NCBI GenBank assembly: GCA_902532475.1
Contig: CACAIE010000013.1
Coordinates: forward strand, 1-43,208
Length of the DNA: 43,208 bases
Origin: an uncultured SAR116 cluster alpha proteobacterium
GTDB lineage: Bacteria > Pseudomonadota > Alphaproteobacteria > Puniceispirillales > GCA-002684695
Direction of reading: 5' to 3'
Shown: positions 36,699 through 41,925 of the stretch, one piece after another
Layout: each line of letters opens with the position of its first letter
How positions within the stretch are numbered: the stretch's first letter is position 1
Position numbers and translations under genes: made by a program
The notes under the pieces: generated by a model
The model's database searches: none
The model's input: only the letters and a program-made list of their open reading frames with translations
Told to the model about the DNA's origin: nothing

Positions 36699-38555
36699 TT
36701 AGTTATCTTGAAAAAAGTTATAAATTCTTTCTGCTATATTTTGAGATATTCCTGTTACTTTCTTTAAATTATCTATTCCTGCTCTTGATACTTCTTTCGC
36801 AGAACCAAAGTATTTAAGTAGAGCTTGTTTTTTAATATTGCCTATGCCTTCAATTTCGTCAATTGGGTTATATGTTAAAGCTTTTTTTCTCTGTGCTCTA
36901 TGAGAGCTAATAGCAAATCTATGGGCCTCATCCCTTAATTTTTGCAAAAAGAACATTATCAGGCTATTTGTCGGTAAAGTAAAACTATTTTGGTTGATTA
37001 AATGAAATTTTTCTTTTCCAGCATTTCTTTGAACACCCTTGGAAATAGCGCAAACTTTAATTTCTTCTAATTGCAAATCTTGTAAGACTTGATAAACAGC
37101 ATTTAGATGCCCCTTACCACCGTCAATTAAAATTAAATTTGGCAAGTTATTTCTCTTACTTTCAGAAGAAATATTTTTAAACCTTCTTTTAATTACATCT
37201 CGCATCATCTTAAAGTCATTTCCTCCAAGGATTTTTTGATTAAATTCTAAGTTAAATTTTCTGTAAGAACTTTTATCAAATCCTTCGGTATTTGCAACTA
37301 CCATAGCTCCCACGGCAAACTTTCCTTGAATATGTGAATTGTCATAAATTTCAATTCTTTTTATATCTTTCTCTAGATTAAAAAGGGTTTTTAACTCATT
37401 AAAATTTTTGTAAGTTTTATCTTGTTCTATTATTTTTCTATTTAAACTGAGTTCAGCATTGGTTAAGGAAGCATCAATTAATTTCTTTTTTATTCCTTTT
37501 TGGGGGCATGTTAATTTTATTTTATAACCAGCTATAGATGACAAAGCTTCAACCATTAGTATATTTTCCTTAGGCGAATGAGACAAAATTATTTCTTTAG
37601 GTGGAATTTTGCTTTCGTAAAACTGGCTTAAAAATCCTGATATAATTTCGTCAGAATTAAGCTCTTTTGCCTGAGCAGGAAAAAAGGTATGGTCACCAAA
37701 ATTTGAACCTGACCTCATAAATGAAATGTGTATAGCTATATTATTATATTTTTTATATAGTGAAATTATATCAACATCTCCTAATTCTTTTACATTAATA
37801 TTTTGAAATGCTTGGATACTTGCTAGGGCTCTAATTTTATTTCTCCAAAGAGTTGCGTTTTCAAAATCTAACTTGTCTGAGCATGTTTGCATTTTATCTG
37901 CGAAATCTTTTTTAATTTTATCAGATTGACCAGACAGAAAATTTTTCACTTGAATAACTTGTTTGTTGTATTCATTTTTGTCTACTAATCCTACACAAGG
38001 TGCGGTGCATCTTTTAATTTGATATTGCAAACAAGGTCGAGTTCTCAAATTAAAAATATTGTCACTACAATTTCTAATCATAAAACCTTTTTGAAGTGCA
38101 TCTATTGCTTTATTTACAGAATTTGCTGAAGCAAAAGGGCCAAAGTAAAAACCTTTTTCATTTTTTTTTCCTCTATGTTTTTTAATTTGAGGAAAACTAT
38201 TATTTGTAGATAAAAGGATATTTGGAAAAGATTTATCGTCACGAAGTAAAATATTATATTTAGGTTTATTTTTTTTTATTAAATTTGATTCCAATAATAA
38301 TGCTTCTACTTCTGTCAAAGTTGTTGAAATCTCTAATGTTTTTGTCTCTGAAATCATTCTTAATATTCGTTTAGATTGATTTTTGAGTTTTGTATAGGAA
38401 GAGACCCTTTTTTTTAAATTTTTCGCTTTACCTATGTATAGTACATCATCTTTGGAATCTAACATCTTATAAATACCAGGTTTAGAGGGTAAACTAATAA
38501 TTTCTTTATCTAAAACTGCTAATCCTTGAATATAATTTCTTGAATTATTTTTCAT
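36699..38555 (-). CDS. uvrC: excinuclease ABC subunit C
   Basis: 618 aa. GIYKMLDSKDDVLYIGKAKNLKKRVSSY, RPCLQYQIKRCTAPCVG, RIEIYDNSHIQG, LILIDGGKGHL, C-terminal HhH. Confidence 0.98.
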   Translation of the reverse strand: MKNNSRNYIQGLAVLDKEIISLPSKPGIYKMLDSKDDVLYIGKAKNLKKRVSSYTKLKNQSKRILRMISETKTLEISTTLTEVEALLLESNLIKKNKPKYNILLRDDKSFPNILLSTNNSFPQIKKHRGKKNEKGFYFGPFASANSVNKAIDALQKGFMIRNCSDNIFNLRTRPCLQYQIKRCTAPCVGLVDKNEYNKQVIQVKNFLSGQSDKIKKDFADKMQTCSDKLDFENATLWRNKIRALASIQAFQNINVKELGDVDIISLYKKYNNIAIHISFMRSGSNFGDHTFFPAQAKELNSDEIISGFLSQFYESKIPPKEIILSHSPKENILMVEALSSIAGYKIKLTCPQKGIKKKLIDASLTNAELSLNRKIIEQDKTYKNFNELKTLFNLEKDIKRIEIYDNSHIQGKFAVGAMVVANTEGFDKSSYRKFNLEFNQKILGGNDFKMMRDVIKRRFKNISSESKRNNLPNLILIDGGKGHLNAVYQVLQDLQLEEIKVCAISKGVQRNAGKEKFHLINQNSFTLPTNSLIMFFLQKLRDEAHRFAISSHRAQRKKALTYNPIDEIEGIGNIKKQALLKYFGSAKEVSRAGIDNLKKVTGISQNIAERIYNFFQDN

Positions 38556-38697
38556 TTTATAATCACCAAATTAAAAATAATTTAGTTTACGTAATGGAGA
38601 TAACTATATTAATTTAATGTAAAACATTTTAATATTATATTTAATAATTCAAAAACATTAAGGTAATCAACTGTTATAGAAATTAATCCACTGTTTT

Positions 38698-38718
38698 TGT
38701 GGATAACTCTGTGGATAA
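38698..38718. other. two perfect DnaA boxes (TGTGGATAA x2) in the AT-rich uvrC-antiporter intergenic gap; candidate oriC element
   Basis: TGTGGATAA at 38698-38706 and 38710-38718, 12 nt start to start, reverse complement of TTATCCACA. An inverted, degenerate box-like TAATCCACT lies just upstream (about 38685-38693). Confidence 0.5.
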
Positions 38719-38920
38719 AAATCCTGTAATTGAACTATATCAATAGTTACAATAAAACTTTAAATAATTTAAGATAAAATTTCTAATTCTAGAAAAATAA
38801 ATAATAACAATAGGATACCAATTGGATTTTGGATTTATACTTTAAATTAATAAAGAAACTTCATAATCGACTAATTTCAGATGATGAGTAAATTTCATTG
38901 TGTATACATTTATATTAATT

Positions 38921-38940
38921 TAATTTTTTATAAAAAATTA
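38921..38940. repeat. 20-nt perfect A/T palindrome spanning the antiporter stop codon
   Basis: TAATTTTTTATAAAAAATTA. Confidence 0.8.
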
Positions 38941-39918: not shown

Positions 39919-41925
39919 TTATCTTAGGCCAAGTTTCTTTTTTTCTAATTTTTTAATTTGATCTCTATATTTTGCAGCATCTTCAAATTCTAGATTAGAA
40001 GCTGATTCTTTCATTTTAATTTCGAGTTCCATTATCATGTCTTCTATTGTACTTTGATTATTAATTTTAGAATCTAGAGTTATTTCTTGTTTAAGAGAAA
40101 TATTTTCATACTCTAAAATATTCGACACATTTTTTTTAATGCTTGCTGGAGTTATATTATTCGAAGTATTAAATTCCTTTTGCTTGGTTCTTCTTCTTTC
40201 AGTTTCGTTTAAGGCATAATTTAAACTCCCAGTAATGATATCAGCATAAAGAATAACTCGCCCATTTATATTTCTTGCTGCTCTGCCAATTGTTTGCACC
40301 AGTGATGTTTTTGATCTTAAAAAACCTTCTTTATCAGCATCAAGTATAGCTACTAAAGCACATTCTGGTATATCCAAACCTTCTCTAAGTAGATTTATTC
40401 CTATCAAAATATCAAATACGCCTAATCTAAGATCTCTGATAATTTCAATTCTTTCAAGTGTATCTATATCTGAATGAAGATATCTAACCTTTAAGTCTGC
40501 CTCAATCATGTATTCGGTTAAAGATTCGGCCATTTTTTTTGTTAATGTAGTAATTAAAATCCTATGTCCTTTGGAGATAACATTTCTGCATTCTGATATA
40601 ACGTCATCTACTTGATTTTTAGTTTTTCTGACAATTGTTTCAGGATCTACTAATCCGGTAGGGCGAATTAGCTGCTCAATAAATACACCATTTGTTTTTT
40701 CAAGCTCCCAATCACCTGGTGTTGCAGATAGAAAAATTGTTTGAGGTCTGAATAGCTCCCACTCCTGGAACTTTAAAGGTCTATTATCCATACATGATGG
40801 CAATCGAAAGCCATATTCTGATAGAGTTTTTTTTCTTGATGCATCCCCTTTATACATAGCACCAAGTTGAGGTATTGTAACATGACTTTCATCAATAATT
40901 AAAAGCGAGTTTTCTGGCATATACTCAAACAATGTAGGAGGAGGTTCTCCTGGTTTTCTGGTGGATAGGTATCTAGAATAATTTTCTATTCCAGTACAAC
41001 TTCCTGTTGCTTCCATCATTTCCAAATCAAAAATAGTTCTTTGCTCTAAACGTTGGGCTTCAAGAATTTTATTTATAGAGTACAATTCATCTAGTCTTAT
41101 TTTTAAGTCTTTCTTTATATTTTTTATTGCATTTCTTAAAGTTGGTTTTGGTGTGACATAATGAGAATTTGCAAAAACTTTAATCTTATTTAAAGTTTCT
41201 AGTTTTTCTCCAGTTAATGAATCAAACTCTTTTATATTTTCTACTTCATCTCCAAAAAAAGAAATTTTCCATGCAGTGTCTTCAAGATGTGATGGAAATA
41301 TCTCTAAAATGTCTCCCCTTATTCTGAAGGTTCCTCTTTTGAAGTTCATATCATTTCTTTTATATTGCAGTTCCACTAAACGATTAACTATTTCTTTTTG
41401 TTTGTATTTTTGAAATGCTTCAATAGTTAGTGTCATCTCGCTGTACGTTTCTAATGACCCAATCCCATAAATACAACTAACTGAAGCGACAATGATGACA
41501 TCTTTTCTTAGTAATAATGACCTAGTTGCGCTATGACGCATTCTATCAATTTGTTCATTGATGCTTGCATCTTTTTCAATATAAGTATCTGAACGTGGTA
41601 CATATGCTTCTGGTTGATAATAATCATAATAAGAAACAAAATACTCAACTGCATTGTTTGGGAATAAATCTTTCATTTCTCCATATAATTGCGCAGCTAA
41701 GGTTTTGTTGGGAGCTAGAATAAGGGTTGGTTTTTGAAAATCTGTGATAACGTTTCCCATAGTAAATGTTTTACCTGAACCCGTAACTCCAAGTAAAACC
41801 TGATCTTTTTCATTATTATTTAAGCCCTTAATTAATTCCTCAATTGCTTGAGGTTGATCTCCAGATGGTTTGAAATTGGATATTAGTTGGAAATTATTAT
41901 TAAGATCATTATTTTGTTTGTTCAT
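39919..41925 (-). CDS. uvrB: excinuclease ABC subunit B
   Basis: 668 aa. [84 protein letters not shown]-terminal UVR motif. Confidence 0.99.

Follow-up and report, generated by a model that had tools for sequence, protein, structure and literature searches.

A candidate DnaA-reactivating element upstream of uvrC in Alphaproteobacteria

The long spacer upstream of uvrC in an uncultured alphaproteobacterium of the SAR116 cluster carries three DnaA boxes in the order, orientation and spacing seen in the DnaA-reactivating sequences (DARS) of Escherichia coli, DNA sites that recharge the replication initiator DnaA. Rather than an origin of replication, the spacer probably holds an element of DARS type at which ADP-DnaA, with the help of IHF, would be converted to ATP-DnaA. 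If this is true, the element may be the step by which Alphaproteobacteria recharge ADP-DnaA after RIDA, so far missing in this class, and it may tie the timing of replication to a repair locus. Its predictable place upstream of uvrC, together with the IHF site and the palindrome-binding protein predicted for it, would make the recharging step directly testable in laboratory strains.

The recharging of DnaA at DARS has been worked out in E. coli. One review places DARS in Gammaproteobacteria (PMC4451416), and a single sentence elsewhere, citing Fujimitsu 2009, mentions similar sequences in ‘many proteobacterial species’ (PMC10380432). In Vibrio cholerae, DARS-like sequences are found at the uvrB and mutH loci (PMC6090056). 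For Alphaproteobacteria such as Caulobacter, HdaA is the known ATP-hydrolysing half of the DnaA cycle (PMC3193534). The literature searched on DARS with uvrC or Alphaproteobacteria gave no description of a uvrC-linked element and no DnaA-recharging DNA site for Alphaproteobacteria. DARS-like sites have hardly been described so far in this class, and novelty is claimed here only for the linkage to uvrC and the full anatomy of the element in Alphaproteobacteria, with a reservation for any alphaproteobacterial DARS sequences that Fujimitsu 2009 may already list.

The box cluster in the uvrC spacer

The window (the whole stretch of DNA that was analysed, 43,208 nt) carries all genes flanking the element on the minus strand, in the order moaE, moaD, mobB-moeA, pgsA, uvrC, spacer, calcium/sodium antiporter and uvrB. 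The gene to which the element is linked class-wide, uvrC (36699-38555, minus strand), starts 128 nt from the core, and uvrB (39919-41925, minus strand) is the next gene but one, adjoining the spacer directly in most of the order. As the sequence-only reading had it, no other gap in the window is as long as the uvrC-antiporter spacer that holds the element (38556-38927), at 372 nt versus 197 nt for the runner-up. It is also the most AT-rich gap, with a GC fraction of 0.188 versus 0.317 for the window. Rfam and tRNA searches gave no match, and no RNA gene is present.

Read directly, the spacer contains TTTTTGTGGATAACTCTGTGGATAAAAAT and the two perfect boxes TGTGGATAA reported at 38698-38706 and 38710-38718. 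These are boxes II and III, each a perfect TTATCCACA on the minus strand; they lie 12 nt apart from start to start, as claimed, with a gap of 3 nt. The degenerate inverted box that had been noticed ahead of the pair is there as well: box I, TAATCCACT, occupies 38684-38692 on the plus strand and has 2 mismatches. The three boxes together form a DARS-like core at 38684-38718 (plus strand) with the spacing and orientation of DARS1 and DARS2. Further along the plus strand there are two IHF-like sites, TATCAATAGTTAC at 38738-38750, with 2 mismatches to WATCAANNNNTTR and +54 from the core start, and TAACAATAGGATA at 38805-38817, likewise with 2 mismatches and at +121. A distal DnaA box, GTATACACA, lies on the minus strand at 38899-38907, with 1 mismatch and +215 from the core start.

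Single boxes are not enriched, and a count of TTWTNCACA gives 9 in the window versus 7.8 expected, while TTATCCACA occurs 15 times in the genome versus 21 times for the reversed control. The pair, by comparison, is unique in the assembly (1.94 Mb, 65% complete), and a scan for all three boxes, allowing 3 mismatches, gives one match there and none for the control. The signal is the arrangement of the boxes, not the number of single boxes.

The 20-nt A/T palindrome described at the edge of the spacer exists exactly as a sequence (38921-38940), but it overlaps the end and stop of the antiporter gene, the corresponding sequence is not the same in two relatives of the genus, G002 and G003, and it has been dropped from the element on these grounds.

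Comparison with E. coli sites

The pattern used for the core is TTATCCMCN6TGTGGATAAN3TGTG. DARS1 matches it with 0 mismatches, the window with 1, DARS2 with 2 and datA with 4; E. coli oriC has no match up to 6 mismatches. Box order, orientation and spacing are identical in the window core (TAATCCACTGTTTTTGTGGATAACTCTGTG), DARS1 (TTATCCACTATTCCTGTGGATAACCATGTG, L206) and DARS2 (TTATTCACCTTTTCTGTGGATAGAGTTGTG, L207). The spacing is known to be common to DARS1 and DARS2, in which box I runs opposite to boxes II and III (PMC5742627; PMC8682772), and the head-to-head placement of boxes I and II is a mark of DARS (PMC10380432).

DARS1, in the bioD-uvrB spacer, resembles the alphaproteobacterial element not only in its three boxes but also in its setting, a long intergenic spacer beside a uvr excision-repair gene and away from oriC. 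This uvr neighbour is counted in favour of the DARS reading of the uvrC-linked element. The two differ in that DARS1 lies just upstream of uvrB and the alphaproteobacterial element upstream of uvrC; moreover, DARS1 has no IHF consensus match nearby (≤1 mismatch), and the palindrome common in Alphaproteobacteria, described below, is not seen at its corresponding offset.

DARS2, in the rppH-mutH spacer upstream of mutH, has the same core geometry and, beyond the core, a layout very similar to that of the class-wide alphaproteobacterial element. Measured from its core, IHF consensus matches lie at +93 and +109, with 3 bp between the two sites as published for IBS1-2 (PMC4245941), and a DnaA box lies at +211. 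The place of IBS2 (∼+109) is that of the class-wide alphaproteobacterial IHF site, and the DnaA box at ∼+211 corresponds to one at ∼+215, although the DARS2 box is oriented oppositely to the alphaproteobacterial distal box. DARS2 further differs in adjoining mutH and in requiring Fis, at sites further out, where the alphaproteobacterial element instead has a 21-bp palindrome at +83. Reports of Fis are confined to gammaproteobacteria with a relationship to E. coli (PMC4245941). The palindrome nevertheless agrees with GnnYAnnnnnTRnnC, the Fis consensus given in PMC8682772, while Fis is not known in Alphaproteobacteria.

A second stretch in the E. coli DARS2 locus (L207:952-981), TTATCCCAGCTTTCTGTGGATAACATGGTG, lies 316 bp from the core and has 2 mismatches to the core pattern.

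Conservation in the genus and order

The window genome was compared with four relatives of the same genus and many of the same order. In G002 and G003, whose UvrC proteins are 66-67% identical to that of the window, the spacer has largely diverged but all three boxes are retained, boxes II and III as such and box I as TCATCCACT. The stretch TATCAATAGTT is also kept in the spacer of both; in these two genomes it is an IHF consensus, a perfect one (TATCAATAGTTTG) at the place of the window's +54 IHF-like site. The palindrome found across the class is absent from the window's copy and likewise from G002 and G003, and the window's copy may be a reduced, more DARS1-like form.

In the order as a whole, the tandem pair is present in 43 of 121 genomes, with 1 control match, and nearly always lies upstream of uvrC with a third box of the same orientation ∼200 bp further on; in many members an IHF match also falls between +120 and +122. 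Not every genome has the element. In family f4 of the order uvrC is present with a spacer of ∼100 nt that contains neither boxes nor core, and in G001 and G004, two genomes of the window's genus that are 83-88% complete, neither a UvrC match nor a DARS-like core was found, which reflects either loss or missing contigs. Because family f4 and these two genomes are without the core, the element appears dispensable. In a UvrC scan over named genomes all neighbours were distant (Rhodobiaceae/OCS116 and others), and their uvrC spacers lack a perfect box pair.

A class-wide element

With up to 2 mismatches allowed, 110 of the 241 alphaproteobacterial genomes scanned carry the core pattern, and the control gives 0 matches; at 1 control match in the 121 genomes of the order for the pair and 0 in the 241 for the core, a chance arrangement of boxes is rejected. 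Of the 110 loci read, 77 have uvrC as the gene directly downstream of the core, with the orientation seen in the window, and these loci span 51 families, a number counted by hand over loci that are related by descent and not independent draws.

Three features outside the search pattern, with offsets measured from the core, accompany it at set positions. The 21-bp palindrome TTTGCCYANNNNNTRGGCAAA lies at +82 to +84 in 64 of 75 uvrC-linked loci. An IHF consensus falls at +107 to +110 in 53 of 77 (background 5e-4 per position), and 58 of the 77, as well as G002 and G003, have an IHF site at a set distance from their core; the window has only its two sites, each with 2 mismatches. A DnaA box of the same orientation, mostly TTGTGCACA, follows at +204 to +228 in 63 of 77. 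Sequence outside the core, palindrome, IHF site and distal box is at background level (mean ungapped identity 0.30). The distance from core to uvrC ranges from 15 to 920 nt, whereas within the element the spacing varies by no more than 1-2 nt. The parts therefore form an independent unit and do not belong to the uvrC promoter.

It is quite possible, though somewhat less likely than not, that a DARS-type element with a link to genes of nucleotide excision repair predates the split of Alpha- and Gammaproteobacteria, its alphaproteobacterial form consisting of the core, the 21-bp palindrome with a Fis-like partner, the IHF site and the distal box.

Core matches away from uvrC occur in other alphaproteobacterial families (L226, L282, L284, L320, L289, L322 and L323), and three of them (L226, L282, L284) have in common a perfect TTATTCACA at +195/196. 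These are possibly relocated elements or origins.

Position of the origin

The spacer was first proposed to be the chromosomal origin oriC or, as an alternative, a DnaA-binding regulatory site. The usual neighbour of oriC in Alphaproteobacteria is hemE, and the hemE-ppsR spacer is the classical alphaproteobacterial oriC locus. The genome of the window is in 120 contigs, and the position of the origin was judged from four single-contig relatives by sampling GC skew in 20-kb stretches. In all four, parB and hemE accompany the skew switch, at 225-760 kb from the element. The skew is clear in G009, with the switch near parB and hemE at 1.81 Mb and the element at 2.417 Mb, and also in G015 (1.49 Mb and 0.730 Mb), where only the local switch was sampled; it is shallow in G005 (2.49 Mb and 0.402 Mb) and noisy, the roughest of the four, in G011 (0.87 Mb and 0.642 Mb). 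The window itself has no skew switch at 38.6 kb. Neither hemE nor parB was found in its own, incomplete genome.

Tandem boxes separate from the element occur in the hemE-ppsR spacer of three further genomes of the order (L100, L103 and L115, in G113, G079 and G071 respectively), and it is likely that this spacer is the true oriC of the order. Like the uvrC spacer, the hemE-linked origin has tandem DnaA boxes in AT-rich DNA, but it differs in its locus and in lacking the three-box core, which was absent from all 14 hemE loci examined, even at 5 mismatches.

Elsewhere in G015 (C1:2200232-2200425; L202:10232-10425), four DnaA boxes lie on the same strand, 58-67 bp apart and ∼0.7 Mb from hemE.

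Function of the element and its alternatives

Two features of known DARS are found here: a box I opposed to the others at the spacing of DARS1 and DARS2 (with 1 mismatch in the window), and a conserved locus away from oriC, as seen in the four relatives and in the class-wide loci at uvrC. Separate Hda-like proteins are present in the order, and for this reason ADP-DnaA is expected there. Four genomes of the order have a clear IHF-alpha; in the incomplete genome of the window it was not clearly found, the only match being HU/IHF-like at 53.7 bits. Set against the DARS reading are the 2 mismatches in the window's box I and in both of its IHF-like sites, the loss of the palindrome from this copy, the linkage to uvrC, which also fits control of transcription, the absence of the core from family f4 and from two genomes of the window's genus, and the requirement of DARS2 for Fis, to date reported from relatives of E. 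coli among the gammaproteobacteria alone.

Of the other roles that a cluster of DnaA boxes could play, the origin is the least probable and can almost be dismissed: two perfect tandem boxes with very AT-rich flanks in the largest gap of the window speak for it, but in the four relatives the skew switch falls at another locus, along with parB and hemE, box clusters stand at hemE-ppsR instead, and the window is without a skew change. What has held up from the original proposal is its alternative, a DnaA-binding regulatory site, so that the interpretation as a whole is partly supported. The main rival within that alternative is an operator at which DnaA, with or without IHF, would couple transcription of uvrC to the replication cycle as repressor or activator, with no nucleotide exchange. 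In 77 of the 110 loci the element precedes uvrC in a single orientation, which suits such a role, and E. coli has a DnaA-repressed promoter, uvrBp3, that overlaps DARS1 (PMC6015884). This overlap means that DARS and operator roles can share one site, and DnaA control of uvrC may coexist with a DARS role. As the whole explanation, an operator is nonetheless unlikely. An operator has no need of exact DARS geometry, the distance to uvrC varies while the internal spacing does not, the palindrome, IHF site and distal box all lie on the side facing away from uvrC, and family f4 has uvrC without the element.

A site like datA, which would titrate DnaA or promote hydrolysis of ATP-DnaA with IHF and so act as a negative regulator of initiation, appears more doubtful still. 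It shares with the element an IHF site between DnaA boxes (PMC10380432) and a position away from oriC, and DnaA clusters outside the origin are known to titrate in other phyla (PMC5742627). In datA, ATP-DnaA hydrolysis goes with boxes 2, 7 and 3 placed about a single IHF site. Its box arrangement is off, however, with 4 mismatches to the core pattern versus 0 for DARS1 and 2 for DARS2. The head-to-head placement of boxes I and II has been named as typical of DARS (PMC10380432), and four boxes would give little titration.

Box order and spacing, conservation, the link to uvrC and the set positions of IHF site, palindrome and distal box in the class are observed; for the preferred DARS-type reading we infer ADP release, the role of IHF and the timing in the cell cycle from work on E. 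coli. After replication, ADP-DnaA would bind the facing boxes I and II, with box III as a helper. A bend introduced by IHF between core and distal DnaA box (+215) would tighten the complex, and the palindrome at +83, where relatives have it, as most do, would be occupied by a further protein. The AAA+ domains of DnaA would then be brought into head-to-head contact, releasing ADP, and the resulting apo-DnaA would take up ATP again, ready for the next round of initiation from the hemE-linked oriC.

In G011, a second copy of the palindrome, TTTGCCTAAAAAATGGGCAGA, lies away from the DARS-like element (C1:1320040; L160:40-60). It is about the sole close match to the palindrome beyond the uvrC copies in the 1.58 Mb scanned, and may point to other targets of the palindrome-binding protein.
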